The translations under genes were made by a program, and so were the position numbers. From a virus, in IMG/VR virus record IMGVR_UViG_3300032893_000302, positions 1-20,839 of that record: a stretch of DNA of 20,839 bases; one strand, 5' to 3'. The notes beneath the pieces were generated by a model that saw only the letters and a program-made list of their open reading frames with translations, was not told the origin of the DNA and did no database searches. This document shows positions 3,167 through 20,839 of the stretch, in pieces; the first letter of the stretch is position 1; each line of letters opens with the position of its first letter.

Positions 3167-3324
3167 AGAACGAAACGCCGTCCTCACACCCCAAGCAACG
3201 GGCGTACGAGCAGCACCGCCGGGAGTGGGCCGAGATTCACGGCCGGCCGATCCCGGCCGATCGCCCGGCCGCTATCCGCTACGGCGGCACGCAGCCGGTG
3301 TCCGACAGGGAGTGGAAGAAGTGA
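3163..3324 (+). CDS. Hypothetical small phage protein (53 aa), GTG start
   Basis: GTG 3163 overlaps the preceding TGA (GTGA) and the frame closes at TGA 3322-3324, again overlapping the next GTG. The product is hydrophilic (QRAYEQHRREWAEIHGRP, then IRYGGTQPVSDREWKK) with many Arg and His. No family is recognised. The double stop-start overlap argues that it is translated, coupled to the genes on either side. Confidence 0.5.
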   Translation: MKNETPSSHPKQRAYEQHRREWAEIHGRPIPADRPAAIRYGGTQPVSDREWKK

Positions 3325-3617
3325 CCGTCCGCCCGCTTCTCGACCGCATCCACGTCCGCCCCGCCGCCGACCGGCGCCTGTCGCCCGGCGGGATCGTACT
3401 GCCGGAGATCCGCCGCGAGCGCATGAAGACCGGCCACCTGGTCCCGGGCGAGCAGAAGACCCGCGAGGGCGTGGTCACCGCTGCAGGTCCGAAGGCGGGC
3501 GACGTCCAGATCGGCGATCGCGTCCTGTTCTACGGGCACGTGGGCTTCCCCACCGTCATTGACGGCGAGGAGCTGCTCGTCATGAAGAACGAGGACATCC
3601 TTGGGATTTTTGACTAG
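3321..3617 (+). CDS. GroES-like co-chaperonin (Cpn10 family, 98 aa)
   Basis: The protein begins MTVRPLLDRIHVRP, has the loop strand SPGGIVLPE, then REGVVTAAGP, IGDRVLFYGHVG and ends DGEELLVMKNEDILGIFD. This is the full Cpn10 pattern in order: R-P-L-x-D-R, GGI-LP, G-V-AxGP, GDRVLF and EELL-M-x-x-DILGI. Length is normal for GroES (about 97 residues). GroES caps the host GroEL chamber; phage versions such as T4 gp31 adapt the chamber to fold the coat protein. The residues between LPE and REGV, RRERMKTGHLVPGEQKT, form a charged insertion. The mobile loop that contacts GroEL lies before SPGGIVLPE and reads AADRRL, shorter than in host GroES. Spacing: GTG overlaps the preceding stop. Confidence 0.88.
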   Translation: MTVRPLLDRIHVRPAADRRLSPGGIVLPEIRRERMKTGHLVPGEQKTREGVVTAAGPKAGDVQIGDRVLFYGHVGFPTVIDGEELLVMKNEDILGIFD

Positions 3618-3835: not shown

Positions 3836-4066
3836 GTGATTAAGGGCCGTACGGTTAGGGTGAGCGACTGCCCGCAGGTGCTCACGCCTGAGGTGATCAT
3901 CGCCCTGCCGGACGGCTTCACGCTGCACGAGCTGCCGGACGGTACAGTAGCGCTCTGGAATGGCTGGGCCTTCATCGAGTTCGACAGCTTGGAGACTGCG
4001 CTGTCCGGTCTGCAGGTCGGCGTCGATGTGCTCAACCTCGCCACGGCGTGTCCGGGGCTGCACTGA
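3836..4066 (+). CDS. Hypothetical phage protein (76 aa), GTG start
   Basis: The frame opens at GTG 3836, four bases after the previous stop, and closes at TGA 4064-4066, overlapping the portal ATG (TGATG). The product reads MIKGRTVRVSDCPQV and later PDGFTLHELPDGTVALWNGW. The repeated pattern of PDG turns suggests a small beta-rich protein. No family is recognised. Its position immediately before, and coupled to, the portal gene fits a head-assembly operon. Confidence 0.55.
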   Translation: MIKGRTVRVSDCPQVLTPEVIIALPDGFTLHELPDGTVALWNGWAFIEFDSLETALSGLQVGVDVLNLATACPGLH

Positions 4067-6282
4067 TGGCCAACAACCCGCGAGACCCGAAGGACGACGG
4101 CAAGATCAAGCTCCCGCAGATCCAGGCCGGCATGAACAAGCGCGGGCCCACCGCCAGCGACGGCGGCAAGGGAGGCGACGACGGCGAGTGGACGTGGCTC
4201 GGCCGGCAGAAGTTCGAGGAAAAGGACGCCGACATCCTGGCCCGCGCGCGCAGCCGATTCGAGCGCACGGCCACTTCAGAAGCGGAGAACCGCAAACGCG
4301 CCGAGGACGACCTGAAGTTCCGCGACGGCCAGCAATGGCCCGCGGACGTCGCCGCACAGCGGAACATGGACAAGCGGCCGTGCCTGACCATCAACAAGCT
4401 GAACACGTTCGTGCACCTGATCACGAACGACATCCGCATGAACAGGCCGGCGATGAACGTGTCGCCGGTGGGCGAGCGGGGCGACAAGGAAGCGGCGAAG
4501 ATGTTCCGCGGCCTGATCCGCCACATCGAACGCGCCAGCGCGGCCGACATCGCCTATGACACCGCGACCGACAATCAGGTCACCAACGGCTTCGGCTACA
4601 TCCGCCTGCTGCTGGACTGGGAGAGCCCCGACAGCTTCCACCAGGTGCTGCGCATCGGCCGCGTGCGCAACCCGTTCACCGTCTACTTGGACCCCGACCG
4701 GCAGCAGCCCGACGGCAGCGACAGCCGCTTCGGCTTCGTGACCGAGGTCATGCCGCTCGACGAGTTCAAGGCTCTCTGGCCCGACCTGTCGCCGTCGTCC
4801 TACGACCTGGGCGCCATCGGCGACAAGTGGAAGGAGTGGAGCTCCAAGGACGGCGTTCGCGTCTGCGAATACTATGAAATCACTCACGAAACTCGCACGC
4901 TGGTGGAGCTCGACAACGGCTTCACCGGCTGGGCCGACGAGCTCGACGACAAGGTCAAGGACAGCCTGAAGGCCAAGCGCCTCACCTACCGCCGCAAGCG
5001 CGAGGCGCAGTACCCGAAGGTCATGCACTACAAGCTGACGGCCATCGACATCCTCGAGCGCGAGGAGTGGATCGGGTCGCACATCCCGATCGTGCCGGTG
5101 ATCGGCGATGAAATCGACATCGGCGGCAAGGTCTCCCTCCGCGGCGTGGTGCGCGACGCCAAGGGCCCGCAGCAGATGTACAATTACTGGCGGACCAGCG
5201 AGACTGAGCTCGTCGCCCTGGCCCCGAAGGCGCCCTACATTGTCGAAGAGGGCCAGATCGAAGGCCATGAGCGCCAGTGGAAGAACGCCAACACCCGGTC
5301 GTTCCCCTACCTGTCCTACAAGGGGACCAGCGTCGCCGGCAGGCCCGCCCCGCCGCCGCAGCGCCAGCCCTCGCCCCAGATCCCCGCAGGTGTCGTCCAG
5401 GCCGCCCAGAGCGCCGCGCAGGACATGATGGCGACCACGGGTATCCGCTTCGACGCCACCATGCAGGAGCGCATGACCGACGAGAGCGGCCGCGCGATCC
5501 GCGAGCTGCGCCGCACCTCCGACATCGGCGCCTTCCACTACGCCGACAACCTCAACCGCTCGCTCCGCTGGCTGGGCGAACAGCTGCTCGAGGCCATCCC
5601 CAAGGTCTACGACGAGGAGCGCGTGGTCACGATCCTGCGCGAGGACGACCAGGAGGAGCAGATCAAGATCAACCCGGCCGCCAACGCAGCCTATGGCGAG
5701 CAGAAGCGTCCTGACGCCGGCCCGGTGAAGATCTTCAATCCCAAGATCGGCAAGTATGGCGTCACCGTCACCATCGGCGAGAGCTACGCCACCAAGCGCA
5801 TCGAAGCCGCCGAGCAGATGATGGCCTTCGTCAAGGCGCTGCCGAACACCGCCGCCATGGTCGCCGACCTGATCGCGGCCGAGATGGACTGGCCGGGCGC
5901 CGAGAAGATCGCCTCGCGCCTGGCCAAGGCGATCGACCCAAAGCTGCTCACGCCCGATCAGAAGGACATTTCGCCGCAGGTGCAGGCGCTGATTCAGAGC
6001 CTGGAGACGCAGGTGAAGATGCTGCAGGGCGAACTGCAGCAGGCCCTGGCCGCGGTGAAGGACAAGTCCGAAGACCGCGACATCGCCCGGGAGAAGATCA
6101 CGGCCGACTTCGAGGCGAAGATCCTCGCCATTGTGCAGAAGGCCGAGGCCGAACGCTCCAAGCAGGAGAACGAAAACCTGCGGGCTGTGGTGCAGCACGT
6201 GAAAGACCTTACAATGCACCTCATGCCGAAACCCCAAGAGCCGGAGCGCGAAGCCGGCGAGGAGCCTGACGAAAATGCCTGA
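4066..6282 (+). CDS. P22-type portal protein (738 aa)
   Basis: The portal forms the dodecameric ring at one capsid vertex through which DNA enters and leaves. The length, 738 residues, is close to P22 gp1 (about 725). Diagnostic stretches include RPCLTINKLNTFVHLITNDI, NRPAMNVSPVG, GFGYIRLLLDWE, RVRNPFTVYLDPD, and later ATTGIRFDATMQERMTDESG. The last ~110 residues form a long heptad-rich coiled coil (from about residue 634, LIQSLETQVKMLQGELQQAL, to about residue 712), matching the C-terminal helical barrel of P22-like portals. ATG 4066 overlaps the previous stop; a start 18 bases upstream is possible but lacks the coupling. The scaffold gene overlaps its end by eight bases. Confidence 0.93.
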   Translation: MANNPRDPKDDGKIKLPQIQAGMNKRGPTASDGGKGGDDGEWTWLGRQKFEEKDADILARARSRFERTATSEAENRKRAEDDLKFRDGQQWPADVAAQRNMDKRPCLTINKLNTFVHLITNDIRMNRPAMNVSPVGERGDKEAAKMFRGLIRHIERASAADIAYDTATDNQVTNGFGYIRLLLDWESPDSFHQVLRIGRVRNPFTVYLDPDRQQPDGSDSRFGFVTEVMPLDEFKALWPDLSPSSYDLGAIGDKWKEWSSKDGVRVCEYYEITHETRTLVELDNGFTGWADELDDKVKDSLKAKRLTYRRKREAQYPKVMHYKLTAIDILEREEWIGSHIPIVPVIGDEIDIGGKVSLRGVVRDAKGPQQMYNYWRTSETELVALAPKAPYIVEEGQIEGHERQWKNANTRSFPYLSYKGTSVAGRPAPPPQRQPSPQIPAGVVQAAQSAAQDMMATTGIRFDATMQERMTDESGRAIRELRRTSDIGAFHYADNLNRSLRWLGEQLLEAIPKVYDEERVVTILREDDQEEQIKINPAANAAYGEQKRPDAGPVKIFNPKIGKYGVTVTIGESYATKRIEAAEQMMAFVKALPNTAAMVADLIAAEMDWPGAEKIASRLAKAIDPKLLTPDQKDISPQVQALIQSLETQVKMLQGELQQALAAVKDKSEDRDIAREKITADFEAKILAIVQKAEAERSKQENENLRAVVQHVKDLTMHLMPKPQEPEREAGEEPDENA

Positions 6283-7210
6283 TCCAGCCGCTCTTGCGAT
6301 GGCCCGGCAGGGCCCCACGCTGTCGGCGACGTCCGACATGCCCGCGCCTGCGGCCCAGCCCACGCCTGCCGACGACAGTCAAAAAGCCGCCGCTGTTGAC
6401 GAAACCGCTGCAGGAGCGGATAAATCAACCACCGCGGCGGAAAATGACGCGGGCGAGAGCGCCGCCGGCTCCAAGGAAAAGGGCGAAGGGACCGATGTCC
6501 CGGCTTGGCAAAAGGCGCGCATCACCGCCGAGGCCAACAAACGTCGGGCTGCCGAAGAACGCGCGAAAGCCCTAGAGACCGAGAACGCCCGCCTGCGGGA
6601 ACTCAGCCTCAAGGCCCTCGAGCAAGTCACGGCCAAGCCGGAGCCGAAGGAAGATCCCCGCCCGTCGCGGGACACCTTCGACGACCCGGACGCCTACGAC
6701 AAAGCGCTCGAGGCGTGGGCAGGACGCCAGGCCGCCGCCAAGGCGGTGGCGGACGACCGCAAGGCGCGCGAGACGGAGCAGCAGCGAGCTCGGGCCCAGG
6801 AGACCGTCGACACCTACAACGCCCGCCGGGCCGAGTTCGTGAAGGCCAATCCGGACTTCGAGGAGATCGTCGAGGCCGACGACCTGCACTTCACCCCGGC
6901 CATGACCGTGGCGATCGTGCACGACGAGGATGGCCCGGCAGTGGCGTACTACCTCGCGAAGAATCCCGAGGAGTTCGACCGGATCTCCAAGATGGACACG
7001 GCCCAAGCGGCGGTAGCGATCGGACGGATTGCGGCGCGCTTGAACAAGCAGCCCGTCGATCCGAAGCCCGATCCCATCAAGCCGCTGAACGGATCACGGG
7101 CGTCCGCGGCCGGCAAGTCGGCCGATGAGATGTCGATGGCGGAATATGCGGCCAAGCGGGAGGCGGATCGTCTCGCAGCTTGGAAGGCCAGGACCGGCAG
7201 AACCAACTAG
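6275..7210 (+). CDS. Scaffolding protein (311 aa)
   Basis: The position between portal and coat, the length (P22 gp8 is about 303) and the composition point to the procapsid scaffold. The first ~70 residues are Ala/Pro/acidic and disordered. From about residue 75 a coiled coil runs through WQKARITAEANKRRAAEERA, KALETENARLREL and a second helical region RKARETEQQRARAQETVDTY. The C-terminus is basic and helical (MAEYAAKREADRLAAWKART), which in scaffolds contacts the coat protein. GAGGAG at 6259-6264 serves ATG 6275, inside the portal gene. Scaffolds diverge quickly, so assignment is by architecture and synteny rather than sequence. Confidence 0.85.
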   Translation: MPDPAALAMARQGPTLSATSDMPAPAAQPTPADDSQKAAAVDETAAGADKSTTAAENDAGESAAGSKEKGEGTDVPAWQKARITAEANKRRAAEERAKALETENARLRELSLKALEQVTAKPEPKEDPRPSRDTFDDPDAYDKALEAWAGRQAAAKAVADDRKARETEQQRARAQETVDTYNARRAEFVKANPDFEEIVEADDLHFTPAMTVAIVHDEDGPAVAYYLAKNPEEFDRISKMDTAQAAVAIGRIAARLNKQPVDPKPDPIKPLNGSRASAAGKSADEMSMAEYAAKREADRLAAWKARTGRTN

Positions 7211-13372: not shown

Positions 13373-14079
13373 TGCAGACGCAGGGCTTTCCGCTGCAGAA
13401 TCAGCCGCCGCTGGTCGGCGTGCCGGCGCTGTTCAATCAGGTCTGGTTCCAGTTTTTTCAGACGCTGTGGAATCGTCTCGGCGGCGCGCAGGTGGCCGCC
13501 GTGGTCCCAAGCGGCGCGATGCTGCCGTGCGGCGGCCCCGTGCAGGACGGCTACATCCTGTGCGACGGATCGGCGGTGTCGCGCACCGAGTACGCCGCAT
13601 TATTCGCCGTGATCGGCACGCGGTGGGGCGCCGGCGACGGCTCGACGACCTTCAACGTCCCCGACATGGTCGACCGCTTCCCGGTCGGGGCGGGAAACCT
13701 GTACGCGCTGGGCGACACCGGCGGGGCGGCGAGTGTCGAGCTCACGACCGCCCAGCTGCCGGCCCACAACCACGCGGTGACCGATCCGGGGCACACCCAC
13801 AACATCACCGACCCGGGGCACACGCACACGGTCAGCGATCCCGGCCACGTACACTCCTCGGTCGTCGCGGCGTCAAACGTCACCACCGGCACGTCAGCGG
13901 GCGGCGTGACCGCCGGGAACACCGGCTCGGCGACGACCGGGATCACCAATCAGTCGGCGATGACTGGTGTAGCGACCGTAGCCACTACCACCGGCGTCAC
14001 CACCCAGAACACTGGCTCGGGAACGGCAGTGCCGACCCTTCCGCCCTATGCCGCCGTCACGTGGATGATCAAGACATGA
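13372..14079 (+). CDS. Tail collar domain fibre protein (235 aa)
   Basis: Residues 47-109 are a phage tail collar domain: PSGAMLPCGG, GYILCDGSAVSRTEYAALFA, IGTRWGAGDGSTTFNVPDMV and DRFPVGAG. The first ~40 residues (FPLQNQPPLVGVPALFNQVW) probably attach to the virion. Four HxH pairs follow at His132/134, His141/143, His150/152 and His159/161, the last three in TDPGHTH-like repeats. Such HxH stretches bind metal in trimeric fibres. The C-terminus is a Gly/Thr-rich repeat ending PPYAAVTWMIKT, usual for collar fibres. In P22 this slot holds the tail needle gp26 (about 233 residues), which this protein replaces. It is likely the receptor-reading or adhesion fibre. Confidence 0.88.
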   Translation: MQTQGFPLQNQPPLVGVPALFNQVWFQFFQTLWNRLGGAQVAAVVPSGAMLPCGGPVQDGYILCDGSAVSRTEYAALFAVIGTRWGAGDGSTTFNVPDMVDRFPVGAGNLYALGDTGGAASVELTTAQLPAHNHAVTDPGHTHNITDPGHTHTVSDPGHVHSSVVAASNVTTGTSAGGVTAGNTGSATTGITNQSAMTGVATVATTTGVTTQNTGSGTAVPTLPPYAAVTWMIKT

Positions 14080-14633
14080 GCACGCCCTTTTTCATCACCG
14101 GCCTGCCGCGCTCGCGCACCGCGTGGTTCGCCATCGCCACGTCGACCGACAGGTCGGTCTGCCACCACGAGCCGCATTATGGGGACTTCGAAACCGCGGC
14201 CGAGCTCTGGGCGATGCAGTCGCGGTACGAGTTCGTGGGCATTGCTGACGCGGGCCTCGGCATGCATCTGCGGCGGATCCTGGACGAGGTCGGCCCGCGG
14301 ACGCTGATCATCGACCGCGGCCCCATGGCGGTGGCGGGTTCGCTGCGCAAGTACATGGGGTTGAGCGAGCAGCGGCTCGGGCCGGGCTGGTATCCAGCCC
14401 TGCTCGCCCGCCTCGAGGTGCTCGGCGCGGCGCTGGCCGTCGAGCATTCGCTGATCAAGCGGGTCGCCTTCGACGATCTCACGGACGTCGACACGCTGCG
14501 CGCCTGCTTCGACTGGCTCATGCCCGGCTGCAAGCCGCTGAACCTGGTGCAGCTCATGCACATGAACATTCAGAGCGATTTGGGCTATAACCTCGCCAAG
14601 CTGAGCCGTTTCCGCGACCTCTCGGCGACCTAG
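14076..14633 (+). CDS. Sulfotransferase-like P-loop protein (185 aa)
   Basis: The N-terminus FFITGLPRSRTAWFAIATST matches the PAPS-binding 5' phosphosulfate loop of sulfotransferases (G-x-PRS-x-T). CHHEPHYGDF follows. A later strand, TLIIDRGPMAVAGSLRKYMG, matches the 3' phosphate-binding motif R-x-P-x-x-V-x-x-S (Arg81, Ser89). At 185 residues it is shorter than bacterial or animal enzymes (about 250-350), as are other phage-encoded members. The ATG overlaps the collar gene stop. The reaction would be sulfate transfer from PAPS to an acceptor on a glycan, a protein or a small molecule. The acceptor is unknown. The catalytic His cannot be fixed from sequence alone. Confidence 0.72.
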   Translation: MSTPFFITGLPRSRTAWFAIATSTDRSVCHHEPHYGDFETAAELWAMQSRYEFVGIADAGLGMHLRRILDEVGPRTLIIDRGPMAVAGSLRKYMGLSEQRLGPGWYPALLARLEVLGAALAVEHSLIKRVAFDDLTDVDTLRACFDWLMPGCKPLNLVQLMHMNIQSDLGYNLAKLSRFRDLSAT

Positions 14634-15392: not shown

Positions 15393-16802
15393 ATGGCCCT
15401 GGACCCTTCGATCATCCTGGACATCAACCCGCAGCCGATCGATCCCAACACCTACGCGAAGGTGTTCCAGCAGGCCGCACAGCTGCGGGAGATCCGTGAT
15501 CAGCAGCAGTCCCAGAACATGCTGCGCGCGCTGGCGCAGCAGCCTGGCAACATCGACCCGAAGACGGGCTCGTTCACGCCCAACGCGTTGGCGCAGATCA
15601 CCAAGGTCAATCCGCAGCTGGGGATGAAGCTCGGCGAGCAGGCCGTGCAGGCGGAGAACGTCGCGGCCGAAGCCGAGATGCACAAGTCGCAGGCGTTTGC
15701 GGACAAGATGAAGGCTTCGCACGAGGTGGCGTCCGAGGCGGTGGACACCTACGACGCGGCCCTGGCCGGCGGCGCATCGCCCGACGCCGCGCGCATGCAG
15801 GCGCAGGACGTGCTGACCAAGGGTGTCGACAAGCTGCGCAAGTCCGGCATGTTCTCTGACGCCGAGCTCGCCCAAGCCCAGACGGAGTTCGATCCGGTGC
15901 GGACGCGCGCCAACGCCGGCAAGACGGCCGAGTGGCTCGACCGGGTGGAGCAGGCCAAGAAGGACGCGCTGGCCGAGAAGAAGGCCGAGGAGACCGAGCG
16001 CCACCAGCGGGAGGTCGAAGCGCGCGAGGAGCGCCATGAACGCGTCCAGGAGGGCTTGGAGGGCGCTCGCCTCAAGCTCGAGGAGCGGAAAGAGGCCCGC
16101 GAGGAGCGCGCGGCGAGCGACAAGCCCAACTTGTCGCCGCTGGCGATCGAAGGGGCCGCCGAGCAACTCCTGGCCGGCGATCGGTCGGTGCTGCAGAACT
16201 TCGGCCGCGGCAAGCAGGGCGCCGCCGACCTGGCCGCCGTGCGCAATCGGACCTTCGAGCTCGCCGCCGAGCGAGGCCTGAAGGGCGCCGACCTCGCCAA
16301 CATCGACGCCGCGTTCAGGGGTCAGGTGGCCGGCGAGCAAGCGCTGGGCCGGCGCGGCTCGCAGCTCGAGCAGGCCGGCAGCGCGCTCGAGGGCATGATC
16401 GGGCTGTCGAAGGAAGCCTACTCCAAGCTCCCGCGCGGCCAGTTCGTGCCGTTCAACAAGCTGCGCGCGATGGTCGACCACAACCTGTCGAGCCCCGAGC
16501 AGGCCGCGGCGTTCCAGTACGACGAGGCGGTGGTGAACGCCTGGGCCAAGAGCATCAACCCGAGCGGCGGCCTGACGGTATCGGACGTCAAGCGCGGCGA
16601 GGAAATGCTGAGCAAGGTCACCAGCGTCGAGGCCCACAACGCGGTGCTCGATGCGATGCTCAAGGAAGTGGCCAAGGAGCGCGGCGCCAACGTGTCGGCC
16701 CGCGCCAACCTGCGCGACCAGGGTGAGAAGGGTCCCGCGCCGCCGCCGGGGAAGAAGCTCCGCTACAACCCGAAAACGGGTGAGCTGGACGAAATCAAAT
16801 GA
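15393..16802 (+). CDS. Ejection protein, P22 gp20-like by position and length (469 aa)
   Basis: The length is 469 residues, close to P22 gp20 (about 471), and the gene sits between gp7-like and gp16-like genes. The N-terminal half is helical, with QQAAQLREIRDQQQSQNMLR. A long charged coiled coil follows at about residues 190-245 (AKKDALAEKKAEETERHQRE and onward). The C-terminal part includes FVPFNKLRAMVDHNLSSPEQ and ends in a proline-rich, basic tail. No enzymatic motif is visible. Ejection proteins diverge beyond easy recognition, so the assignment relies mainly on context. The stop overlaps the next ATG by four bases. Confidence 0.68.
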   Translation: MALDPSIILDINPQPIDPNTYAKVFQQAAQLREIRDQQQSQNMLRALAQQPGNIDPKTGSFTPNALAQITKVNPQLGMKLGEQAVQAENVAAEAEMHKSQAFADKMKASHEVASEAVDTYDAALAGGASPDAARMQAQDVLTKGVDKLRKSGMFSDAELAQAQTEFDPVRTRANAGKTAEWLDRVEQAKKDALAEKKAEETERHQREVEAREERHERVQEGLEGARLKLEERKEAREERAASDKPNLSPLAIEGAAEQLLAGDRSVLQNFGRGKQGAADLAAVRNRTFELAAERGLKGADLANIDAAFRGQVAGEQALGRRGSQLEQAGSALEGMIGLSKEAYSKLPRGQFVPFNKLRAMVDHNLSSPEQAAAFQYDEAVVNAWAKSINPSGGLTVSDVKRGEEMLSKVTSVEAHNAVLDAMLKEVAKERGANVSARANLRDQGEKGPAPPPGKKLRYNPKTGELDEIK

Positions 16803-18673
16803 CCATCGAAGTCGAAGGCCCGGACGGTCACACGGTGGAGTTCCCCGACGGCACGCCGACGGCGACGATCAAGGCGGCCATGGCCAAGCACTTCGGGGGG
16901 CCTAAGACTGCCGCGGCGCCCAAGGATCCGCATGACGAGGAGATCGAGCGCCAGCGGCAGATGATCCTGCAGTCGCAGGCCGAGCGCGAGCACCCGCTGG
17001 AAGCCTACGGCGAGACGGTCAAGGGCGCGGTCGACGCGGTGGTGGGGGACGTCAAGCGCCAGTTCACCGTACCCAAGAACTTGGGGGAGCTCGCCGAGCG
17101 TGCCTTCGATGCGACCAATCCGACGCATGCGGTGGCGGATGCGCTCAGCGCGGTCACGGCCCCGTTCATCGGCGGCCCGGGCGCGGTGGTTGAGCGCGCC
17201 ACGCGCTACAAGATGACGCCCGACCAGGTCGAACGCTTGGCCAAGACGCGCGCGGCGCTGCCGCCTGCCCTGCGCGACGTGGTCGCCCCGATCCCCAAGG
17301 GCTTGGATCCGACCGAGGCGCTGGCGGTGCTGGGCCCGGAGATGGGCGCTGGCGAGCAGGCGGCGTACCGCGCCAAGATGCTGGGCGGGGCGGGAACCGC
17401 CGCCAAAGCCGCTCCGGAGACCGCTGGGGCCGCTCGCGAGGCCGCGGCGGCTGCGGGCAAGCCGCAGGGGCGGACCAAGCCCACGGCCCCCGCGTTACCC
17501 GCGGGGACGCCTGCTGAGCGCTACCGCGCCCGCGTCGATCGCCTCACCAAGGAGGGCGTCGAGCTCACGCCGGGCCAGATCAAGGGCGGCGAGGCCCGCC
17601 GGCAGGAGGAGGCGCACAAGTCGCACCCGCTCTGGGGCAAGGCGGTGCGCGAGGCCGAGAACAAGTCCATCGTCTCGTTCAACCGCGCCACCTACGACAA
17701 GGTGCTGGCGCCGCTCGGCGAGAAGGTGGCCGCCAAGGAGCTGCCCGACGACATGATCGGGCGGGAGGGGATCGACCTGGTGGGCAAGCGCATCGGCGCG
17801 GCGTACGAACGGATCCTGCCCAAGATGCGGGCCAAGCCCGACCACCAGCTGGTCGAAGACCTGTCCGAGATCAAGGAAGACGGCGGCCTGCTGGGGCCCT
17901 ACGAAAGCACACTGAACCACATCATCGACCAGCGGATCGTCAAGCGCATGCAGGCTGGCGAACTCGACGGCCGCGAGGTCAAGCGGCTCGAGAGCGAACT
18001 CAGCTACTTGGCACGGCAGTACGGGTCGTCGCAGGACGGTGCTCAGAAGCTGCTGGCCGACCATATCGAGCGCGTGCAGAGCGCCCTGCATGACAACATG
18101 GAGCGCCACTCAGATCCGGCCGTGCGGGAGCAGCTGAAGAAGACCAACCAGGCATGGGCCGGGTATGTGCGCCTGCGCGGCGCCGCTGCCAACCGCGCCT
18201 CGTCCGGCGGGGTGTTCACCGTGGGCGACCTGCTCTCGGCGATCAAGCGCGAGGACAAGAGCCCCGGGAAAGGCTCGTTCGCGCGCGGCGATGCGATGCT
18301 GCAGGACCTGGCCGAGGATGCGAACGCGGTCATCCCCAACCGACTGCCCGACAGCGGCACGCCCGAGCGCCTCGCCCGCAACCGCATGGCGGGCGGTGTG
18401 GGCGCTAGCGTCGGCGGGGCCATCGGCGGCATCCCGGGCGCCGCAGCGGGGTGGGCGGCCGGCGAGGCGGTCAACGCCGCGGTGCCTCCGCTGACCAACC
18501 GCCTCGCGGCCATGGCGATCCGCGAGCGCCGCGCCGCCGCGCTGCAGCCCGGCTCGTCCCGGAACTACCTGAAGGGCGCCACCCAGCGCGTCGCCCGCGC
18601 GGCGCAGGCCGGCGCGATCACTTCGGCGATCACCGCCGAGCAACGCCGGAACCAGGAAAAGCCCCAGCAATGA
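16799..18673 (+). CDS. Ejection protein, P22 gp16-like by position and length (624 aa)
   Basis: The first residues (MTIEVEGPDGHTVEFPDGTP, then IKAAMAKHFGG) form the small 'VEFPDGTPxxxIKAAM' module found at the start of many large phage internal virion proteins. The central part is helical and rich in Arg/Lys/Glu (residues about 230-450), with RYRARVDRLTKEGVELTPGQ. Near the end a Gly/Ala segment (GGVGASVGGAIGGIPGAAAG) has the regular small-residue spacing of a glycine zipper and could insert in a membrane. The length, 624 residues, is near P22 gp16 (about 609). No lysozyme or transglycosylase catalytic motif was seen. It probably enters the cell with the genome. ATGA overlap at each end suggests coupled translation. 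Confidence 0.7.
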   Translation: MTIEVEGPDGHTVEFPDGTPTATIKAAMAKHFGGPKTAAAPKDPHDEEIERQRQMILQSQAEREHPLEAYGETVKGAVDAVVGDVKRQFTVPKNLGELAERAFDATNPTHAVADALSAVTAPFIGGPGAVVERATRYKMTPDQVERLAKTRAALPPALRDVVAPIPKGLDPTEALAVLGPEMGAGEQAAYRAKMLGGAGTAAKAAPETAGAAREAAAAAGKPQGRTKPTAPALPAGTPAERYRARVDRLTKEGVELTPGQIKGGEARRQEEAHKSHPLWGKAVREAENKSIVSFNRATYDKVLAPLGEKVAAKELPDDMIGREGIDLVGKRIGAAYERILPKMRAKPDHQLVEDLSEIKEDGGLLGPYESTLNHIIDQRIVKRMQAGELDGREVKRLESELSYLARQYGSSQDGAQKLLADHIERVQSALHDNMERHSDPAVREQLKKTNQAWAGYVRLRGAAANRASSGGVFTVGDLLSAIKREDKSPGKGSFARGDAMLQDLAEDANAVIPNRLPDSGTPERLARNRMAGGVGASVGGAIGGIPGAAAGWAAGEAVNAAVPPLTNRLAAMAIRERRAAALQPGSSRNYLKGATQRVARAAQAGAITSAITAEQRRNQEKPQQ

Positions 18674-20839
18674 GGGTGCTGATCATCGACTGCGAGCTGA
18701 TGGGCCTGGACTTCGCCCAGCGCTGCGTCGAGGACGGCCACGAGGTGCGCTGGTTCCTCAACCCTTCGACCGGCAAGGAGGGTGTGGGGTTCGACGGCGT
18801 CAAGCGCGTCCCCGATTGGCGCGAGCACATGAAGTGGGCCAAGGACGGCCTGATCGTGCTCACCGGCAACGCCAAGTACCTGCGCGAGCTCGAGGGCTAC
18901 CGCCGCATGGGCTTTCCGGTGTTCGGACCGTCGGTGGCCAGCGCCAAGCTCGAAATCGACCGGGCGGCCGGCATGCAAGCGATGCAGGAGGTCGGGATTG
19001 AGATTCCGCCCTACAAGCAGTTCGCTTCCCTGAAGGCCGCCGAGACCTTCGCCCGCAAGAGCGACCAGGCGTGGGTGTTCAAGACCATGGGCGACGAGGA
19101 GGACAAGTCGCTGTCCTACGTCTCCTCGGACCCCGCCGACCTGGTCGGCTGGCTGCAGCGCCAGCAGGCGCGCGGGCTGACGCTCAAAGGCCCCTGCATG
19201 CTGCAGGAGAAGATCGACATGGTGGCCGAGTTCGGGGTGTCCGGCTGGGTGGGGCCGGCGGGCTTCCTGGCCGACAAGTGGCAGCTGTGTTTCGAGCACA
19301 AGAAGCTGATGGCCGGGGACAAGGGCCCGAACTGCTTCACGCCTGATTCGGAGGTGCTGACGCGGACTGGCTGGAAGGCCTGGCCTGAGGTCACCATGGA
19401 CGACGACATTTGCACGCTAAAAGACGGTCAGATTGAGTACGAGAAGCCTAAGCGGGTGGTCGTCGGCGACTTCGACGGCGAGTTGATCGGGTGGCAGACG
19501 CCGTACTTGGACATTCTGGTCACACCCGGTCACAACATGTACGTGCAAGATGATCACTACCGCCAGCCGTTTTGGTTCGAGCCCGCGCACGAGACGCTGG
19601 GCCGACGCCGCACAGTTTTGCGAGCCGGCGGAGTTTGGCGGGGCGACCCGTCCCCGATTGCTGGCGAGCTCGAGCATGCGGCCCTCCTGGGCATTTATCT
19701 CGCCGACGGCAGCACTCACCGAGGTGAGGTAGTTTTTGGTAATCTGCCGGATCACAAGATCGCCGAATTTTCCCAGATCGTGGATTTGGCCGGATATGGT
19801 TTCAGGCTCCGCGGGAGAGATCTGGTTATCGGAGCGCCGTCGCTGGCCGAGTATTTCCGCGCCTTCGGTAAATCGCACGAGAAATTCGTGCCGAGCCAGA
19901 TGAAGGACGCCGAACCCAGTGTGATCAAAGCGTTCCTGGATGCCTACGCGTTAGGAGACGGAACCCGACGCCAAGGGAATCTCACGATCAGCACCAGCAG
20001 CCGCCGAATGGCGGACGACCTCCAAGAGCTCGCCCTGAAGGTCGGATGGGCTGCCAATGTCCGCGTCCGCGATCGACGTGGGGAGGCCCACCAGATCGGC
20101 GGCTACACCTGCGTTACCAACCACATCGGCTATGAGGTTGGGATTTCCAAGGACCGCCTGAAGGCCGAAATCTCGCCGGACTGCGCCTATCGGGATCGCT
20201 ATGCCGGCAAGGTCTACTGCGTCACGGTCTCGTCTCACGTCATATACGTCCGCCGCAACGGGAAGGCGTGCTGGATTGGACAGACTGGAGAGATGGGAAC
20301 GGTCTGCCAGTACGTGGAAGACGATCCGATCGTCGACGCGGCGCTGAAGCCCATGGAGCTCGCGTTGATCAAGGCGGCCCACCGCGGCGACTTCGCGGTG
20401 AACTGCGGGATCGACCGAAAGGGCCGCGCCTGGCCGTTCGAGTTCACCTGCCGGCTCGGCTGGCCGGCGTTCTTCATCCAGGTCGCCAGCCACAAGGGCG
20501 ACGTGGCGCAGTGGATGCGCGACCTGCTGGATGGCAAGGACACGCTCAAGGTGCGGCGCGATGTCGCGATCGGGGTGGTGCTGGCCCAGCCGCGGTTCCC
20601 CTACGGCGATTCCAGGCCCGAGATGGTGGAGGGCAACCCCATCGGCGGGATCGAAGGCGTCTGGTCGCAGGCGCATCCGGCGCAGATGATGCGAGGGGTG
20701 GGCCCGGTGATGGGCGGCGGCCGGGTGGTCGACGCGCCGACCTACCAGACGGCCGGCGAGATCGTCGCGGTGATGACTGGCCTCGGCGCGACCGTCGAAG
20801 ACGCGCGCAAGGACGTGTACGGCGCGGTCGACGAGGTCA
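18670..20839 (+). CDS. PurD-like ATP-grasp ligase interrupted by an intein (partial at the right edge)
   Basis: The frame is open from ATG 18670 (overlapping the previous TGA) to the window end. Without the intein the residues follow glycinamide ribonucleotide synthetase (PurD): FGPSVASAKLEIDRAAGMQA (residues 85-104), VFK (137-138 area), FEHKKLMAGDKGPN (208-221) joined to TGEMGT, EFTCRLGWPAF (591-601), and GVVLAQPRFPY with a C-terminal LGATVEDARKDVYGAVDEV like the PurD C-domain. PurD normally joins glycine to phosphoribosylamine using ATP. Here the N-terminal GG-REHA motif is missing (MRVLIIDCELMGLDFAQRCV), the Gly-rich ATP loop is altered, and the RFGDPE signature reads RLGWPA. The spliced product would exceed 400 residues, near PurD's ~430. 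Function is PurD-like but the substrate is uncertain. Confidence 0.83.
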   Translation, partial: MRVLIIDCELMGLDFAQRCVEDGHEVRWFLNPSTGKEGVGFDGVKRVPDWREHMKWAKDGLIVLTGNAKYLRELEGYRRMGFPVFGPSVASAKLEIDRAAGMQAMQEVGIEIPPYKQFASLKAAETFARKSDQAWVFKTMGDEEDKSLSYVSSDPADLVGWLQRQQARGLTLKGPCMLQEKIDMVAEFGVSGWVGPAGFLADKWQLCFEHKKLMAGDKGPNCFTPDSEVLTRTGWKAWPEVTMDDDICTLKDGQIEYEKPKRVVVGDFDGELIGWQTPYLDILVTPGHNMYVQDDHYRQPFWFEPAHETLGRRRTVLRAGGVWRGDPSPIAGELEHAALLGIYLADGSTHRGEVVFGNLPDHKIAEFSQIVDLAGYGFRLRGRDLVIGAPSLAEYFRAFGKSHEKFVPSQMKDAEPSVIKAFLDAYALGDGTRRQGNLTISTSSRRMADDLQELALKVGWAANVRVRDRRGEAHQIGGYTCVTNHIGYEVGISKDRLKAEISPDCAYRDRYAGKVYCVTVSSHVIYVRRNGKACWIGQTGEMGTVCQYVEDDPIVDAALKPMELALIKAAHRGDFAVNCGIDRKGRAWPFEFTCRLGWPAFFIQVASHKGDVAQWMRDLLDGKDTLKVRRDVAIGVVLAQPRFPYGDSRPEMVEGNPIGGIEGVWSQAHPAQMMRGVGPVMGGGRVVDAPTYQTAGEIVAVMTGLGATVEDARKDVYGAVDEV
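19333..20283 (+). mobile_element. Intein with LAGLIDADG-type homing endonuclease (317 aa)
   Basis: The intein begins at Cys222 (TGC 19333) in CFTPDSEVLTRTGWKAW, a standard N-terminal block A. Block B is ILVTPGHNMYV with Thr285 and His288. Two endonuclease motifs follow: LLGIYLADG (residues 339-347, Asp346) and FLDAYALGDG (422-431, Asp430). The C-terminal block reads AGKVYCVTVSSHVIYVRRNG, then KACWIGQ, and the next extein residue is Thr539. The last residue is Gln, not Asn, and the penultimate residue is Gly, not His. Removing it joins GDKGPN to TGEMGT, restoring the PurD loop GPNTGGMG. Both acidic motif residues are present, so the endonuclease may be active. Splicing itself is predicted. Confidence 0.92.

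Follow-up and report, generated by a model that had tools for sequence, protein, structure and literature searches.

A probable mobile LAGLIDADG intein in the ATP-grasp loop of a phage PurD-like ligase

The window analysed here, 20,839 bases of DNA from an uncultured P22-like phage, ends within an open reading frame (ORF) that resembles GAR synthetase (PurD) in its outer parts and an intein in its middle part. This raises the question whether the middle part belongs to the ligase or is an excised and mobile element, and what kind of ligase it interrupts. The ORF begins at ATG 18670, which overlaps the stop codon of the upstream ejection-protein gene (16799-18673), and comprises 723 codons with no stop before the window end. 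Codons 19333-20283 encode 317 amino acids (CFTPDSEVLT...KACWIGQ) without stop or frameshift; the preceding sequence runs to ...GDKGPN at 19332 and the following one starts with TGEMGT... at 20284. The in-frame codons confirm the position given in the initial annotation, which had placed a 317-residue insert exactly between GPN and TGEMG. The parts of the interrupted gene are the following:

18670..19332, plus strand: N-terminal extein (221 aa) of the PurD-like ATP-grasp ligase, ending ...GDKGPN (purD TIGR00877, E 9.5e-8)
19333..20283, plus strand: predicted LAGLIDADG intein, 317 aa, from Cys1 to Gly-Gln317, between GPN and TGEMG (sequence, profile matches, alignments, precursor model)
19333..19371, plus strand: intein block A, CFTPDSEVLTRTG, with the N-terminal nucleophile Cys1 (invariant in the 8 inteins of alignment A2)
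19522..19533, plus strand: block B motif (T-x-x-H) of the intein, present as TPGH at residues 64-67 (T64, P65 and H67 invariant in alignment A2)
19684..19710, plus strand: first of two LAGLIDADG-type motifs (LLGIYLADG), spanning intein residues 118-126 and retaining its acidic residue (alignment A2)
19933..19962, plus strand: second of these motifs (FLDAYALGDG), spanning intein residues 201-210, likewise with its acidic residue retained (match to Pfam PF14528 over intein residues 197-255; alignment A2)
20200..20283, plus strand: intein blocks F and G, YAGKVYCVTVSSHVIYVRRNGKACWIGQ, with Cys at the Asp/Cys position of block F and a C-terminal Gly-Gln, not His-Asn
20284..20838, plus strand: C-extein, first residues T(+1)GEMG, 185 aa, truncated by the window end (purD TIGR00877, E 0.0025)

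Removal of the insert leaves a continuous sequence of 406 aa, which aligns from end to end with about 25 proteins from viral contigs at 55-66% identity and with nothing at the junction. Deletion thus restores an uninterrupted PurD-like sequence, as had been claimed. Since the gene is truncated by the window end, the 406-aa sequence is partial, and the spliced product would comprise about 440 residues by comparison with the empty homologue L005 (439 aa) rather than the approximately 400 proposed earlier. Of the 141 distinct family proteins in the fetched loci, a motif search scored 114 as empty. Nine further family proteins of about 440 aa fall outside the motif; the three inspected read GPNCGEA or GPNCGES and carry no insert. 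The site is also empty in MW202796, a cultured-collection record in which the ORF is unannotated. A scan of 84,980 genomes, with patterns reaching close relatives only, returned no cellular PurD with this intein and only empty-site homologues, at least some of them evidently prophage-borne. An assembly artefact is ruled out by the occurrence of the same junction in independent contigs. Chance is not a reasonable explanation of the insert and its flanking matches.

The insert matches Pfam LAGLIDADG_3 (PF14528) with an E value of 1.5e-9, above the curated cut-off, and, from residue 1, the PHROG of intein-bearing thymidylate synthases (E 1.1e-11). Besides Cys1 and the TPGH of block B, it possesses in block F a Cys with a nearby His (VYC...SSH in YAGKVYCVTVSSHVIY), and Thr+1 at 20284-20286 provides the nucleophile of the C-extein. 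Both LAGLIDADG motifs retain their acidic residues. Structure prediction agrees with the sequence profiles. The model of the window precursor (pLDDT 86.4, with junction residues 210-220 below 50) matches GAR synthetases and, in addition, the inteins TliVMA, PhoVMA and PI-SceI; the best structural match of its intein part is 7qsu, a VMA intein with homing endonuclease (4e-19), and VMA inteins are also the best match of the intein sequence profile (1.3e-14). These features support the assignment of the insert as a class-1 intein carrying a LAGLIDADG homing endonuclease, for which splicing is predicted.

At its C-terminus, the intein ends with Gly-Gln in place of the His-Asn of block G. The initial annotation was right in reading the insert as an intein, but the C-terminal Gln and the absent penultimate His had gone unremarked. 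The Gln is common to the inteins of the window, L002, L061, L062 and L067, all five with Thr+1, and the remaining inteins at the same site end in Asn, their +1 residue being Ser, Thr or Cys. The penultimate His is absent from every intein at this site, including those with C-terminal Asn, and its loss is therefore no defect peculiar to the window. A C-terminal Gln is a known but uncommon variant. Inteins of this kind use the class-1 pathway with cyclisation of Gln (reviewed in PMC4031507), hence the Gly-Gln end is compatible with class 1. Splicing is slow in two archaeal Gln inteins and is improved by a change to Asn, whereas the ribonucleotide reductase (RNR) intein of Chilo iridescent virus (CIV) splices better with its native Gln than with Asn (PMC4031507).

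Exactly the same insertion point, referred to here as site a, is occupied in L002, L003/L030, L004, L061, L062, L064/L065, L067, L068/L070, L071-L073 and L083. Some of these contigs are near-copies; at least 10 other phage contigs carry a site-a intein. Five residues downstream lies a second point, site b (GPNTGEMG/C...GN/TV, slashes marking the intein borders), with inteins in L063, L066 (ligase ORF 3998-6346) and L069. The site-b inteins form a different clade from that of the window; one loop contains two insertion points. A more distant ATP-grasp relative, L044 (2161-4500), is linked to the ligase family by a profile comparison (hhalign, probability 95%, E 2e-8) and carries an intein at LTDPTIR/C...GN/CPYPPG, a position aligned with EFT-R-G-W-P, the second catalytic motif; the scan for an empty-site homologue of L044 returned L044 itself only, and the position of this site is thus approximate.

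The histories of inteins and exteins at site a are in conflict. Between the window and L002, the inteins share 59.6% identity and the exteins 40.5%; for L030 the values are 47.2% and 26.3%. The relation is reversed between L002 and L071 (intein 28.0%, extein 59.0%). The exteins closest to that of the window (~66% identity) carry no intein. Maximum-likelihood trees place the window intein as sister of the L061 intein (96/93) and the window extein in a group with the empty L005 and L008; the L061 extein is sister to L188, an empty homologue in a Rhodanobacteraceae genome (100/100). Sporadic distribution and a phylogeny at odds with that of the host are thus both found, as for a homing intein, and judged by these sequence comparisons the intein is mobile and horizontally transferred. 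Site-a inteins fall into two separated groups, L071/L072/L083 and the rest, which makes at least two invasions of the site probable.

Base composition was compared as well. GC3 in the window is 0.74 for the intein and 0.94 for the extein, and in all 12 site-a cases examined the intein has the lower value of the two. The window C-extein contains 14 AT-ending codons, five of them within its first 16 codons (P ~0.003, chosen post hoc), and this cluster is consistent with co-conversion of flanking sequence on homing. For the close pair L071/L072, dN/dS is 0.095 in the intein and similar in the exteins (0.07 and 0.04), which places the L071/L072 inteins under purifying selection; the window intein and its relatives are too diverged for this comparison, with synonymous sites saturated. 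We infer that the endonuclease cuts DNA.

Concerning the host protein, TIGR00877 (purD) matches the whole ORF with an E value of 7.8e-11, and the extein halves match solved GAR synthetases. The host profile against PurD/GAR synthetase gives an E value of 5.7e-42. The AlphaFold2 model of the empty homologue L005 (pLDDT 93.9) displays the PurD fold over its whole length, with the N, A and C domains. GAR synthetases make up all 15 top PDB matches of this model (TM ~0.7-0.75), well ahead of PurK and PurT. A PHROG search with L005 gave no match. The PurD equivalog cut-off of 288 bits is not reached by the window ORF (41.4 bits), L005 (86.7 bits) or L030 (91 bits). Moreover, the EFN motif is EFT in the window, and the Thr is invariant in 23 homologues (alignment A5). 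The Asn of EFN is a metal ligand in ATP-grasp enzymes. Because of the score far below the cut-off and the change from EFN to EFT, the host is called PurD-like and not PurD; the earlier description as a phage PurD-like ligase is upheld, and the protein is no proven GAR synthetase. On sequence grounds we regard it as a PurD-like ATP-grasp ligase with possible activity on a purine precursor.

The gene adjoins genes of DNA-ejection proteins (PHROG 598 and 26400, in the window), and portal, scaffold, coat and head-closure genes are also found in its region. This set of virion genes resembles that of P22. In several relatives, among them a Rhodanobacteraceae genome, the ligase follows ejection genes and precedes a tail-fibre gene. 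This location and the invariant Thr in place of the EFN Asn suggest that the substrate of the ligase may be other than a purine precursor. As separate observations, the head module of the window encodes a GroES-like co-chaperonin (3225-3617; PHROG 3188, 9e-12), a 10-kDa chaperonin is also annotated close to the connector gene of MW202796, and an ORF at about 14076-14633 of the window, starting MSTPFFITGLPRSRTAW, may encode a sulfotransferase.

The insert is very probably a mobile intein of class 1 that encodes a LAGLIDADG homing endonuclease and interrupts the GPN/TGEMG loop of a phage PurD-like ATP-grasp ligase. The following mechanism is proposed. The precursor would be synthesised whole, Cys1 would attack at the GPN junction and Thr+1 would receive the N-extein. 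Gln317, in place of Asn, would then cyclise and release the intein, and in the remaining ligase of about 440 aa the GPNTGEMG loop would be uninterrupted. On co-infection, the freed intein would cut intein-less alleles at the conserved site, and repair after cutting would copy it into the empty allele.

A more far-reaching view takes the GPNTG loop for an intein hotspot where slow or conditional Gln-terminated inteins time a virion-module ligase modifying a target that is not a purine precursor; we consider this very improbable. Also very improbable is a role of the intein as a switch, whose slow or conditional Gln-dependent splicing would postpone ligase activity to late infection or to a certain state of the host. 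Before splicing, the inserted residues should leave the ATP-binding loop inactive, the Gln variant is kept in related contigs and the gene is located in the virion module, all of which would suit such a role, but the intein is sporadic in close relatives, with L061 occupied and its near relative L188 empty, so that any regulation would be no conserved need of the ligase. About as improbable is that the insert represents a splicing-defective relic or a slow intein, with an inactive or partly spliced ligase and persistence mainly by homing. The replacement of His-Asn by Gly-Gln and the slow splicing of the two archaeal Gln inteins argue in this direction. Against it, the same Gln and Thr+1 are retained in L002, L061, L062 and L067, the penultimate His is missing even from same-site relatives with C-terminal Asn, the uninterrupted reading frame of the window insert keeps all other catalytic positions intact, and the viral CIV RNR intein works better with Gln. 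Finally, the insert is in frame and carried by several family members, as a normal accessory domain of the ligase (e.g. a Hint or LAGLIDADG regulatory domain) would be, yet the likelihood of such a domain is practically nil, since more than 110 distinct members, the majority of the family, align without any insert exactly at this point, the loop interrupted by the insert is the most conserved one of the ATP-grasp, and the phylogenies of insert and host disagree.

The mobile intein of the window resembles several known systems. It aligns over residues 1-317 with the phage thymidylate synthase inteins (Corynebacterium phage P1201; PHROG 85), likewise of the LAGLIDADG type, at 28% identity (E 2e-30), but these reside in another host gene and at another insertion site. 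Mycobacteriophage inteins (nucleotidyltransferase, TerL and others) are also phage-borne, located in functional motifs and biased to ATP-binding proteins, and the nucleotidyltransferase intein is about 28% identical to that of the window across the full intein; among the hosts shown in the excerpts of Kelley et al. 2016 (PMC5050341), there is no PurD-like protein. The best structural and profile matches, VMA inteins with homing endonuclease (TliVMA 7qsu/7qss, PhoVMA 7qst, PI-SceI), differ in that their hosts are archaeal or yeast V-ATPase catalytic subunits. The inteins of CIV ribonucleotide reductase and Pyrococcus abyssi Pol II (PMC4031507) share the replacement of the terminal Asn by Gln; unlike them, with RNR and DNA polymerase II as hosts, the window has Thr+1 and a Gly before Gln. 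The host protein shares fold, profile and GPNTG loop with PurD/GAR synthetase (2yw2, 2xcl, 5vev), but deviates in reading GPNTGEMG instead of GPNTGGMG and EFT instead of EFN, in its low profile score and in its place in a phage virion module.

A search of 5.39 million open-access papers yielded no intein described in PurD or in any PurD-like protein, and within this range the suggestion of an undescribed insertion site stands. Conserved ATP-binding sites are the usual pattern of intein insertion (PMC5050341), and both inteins in ATP-binding motifs and the occupation of several sites of one gene are well known (PMC5050341, PMC10643990). The intein is of an ordinary kind, but its host gene and insertion point seem to be undescribed. 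They would add to the intein map a new host family, the PurD-fold ATP-grasp ligases of P22-like phages, with at least two adjacent insertion points, and would show that inteins prefer ATP-binding sites not in P-loop proteins alone but also in an ATP-grasp loop. Since many related phages hold either occupied or empty alleles, and inteins and exteins clearly conflict, homing between uncultured phages can be studied in this natural system; C-terminal chemistry can be compared directly between the Gln and Asn variants of one site. For annotation, it has to be borne in mind that the interrupted gene reads as a protein of 720-780 aa with mixed matches and may be miscalled.

Relatives of the window intein also occur outside the ligase family. 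One of them (34%) interrupts a glycosyltransferase in a viral contig (L042:735-3314). Others lie inside long repetitive proteins resembling tail or structural proteins (L045-L049, L059), an uncommon kind of intein host.
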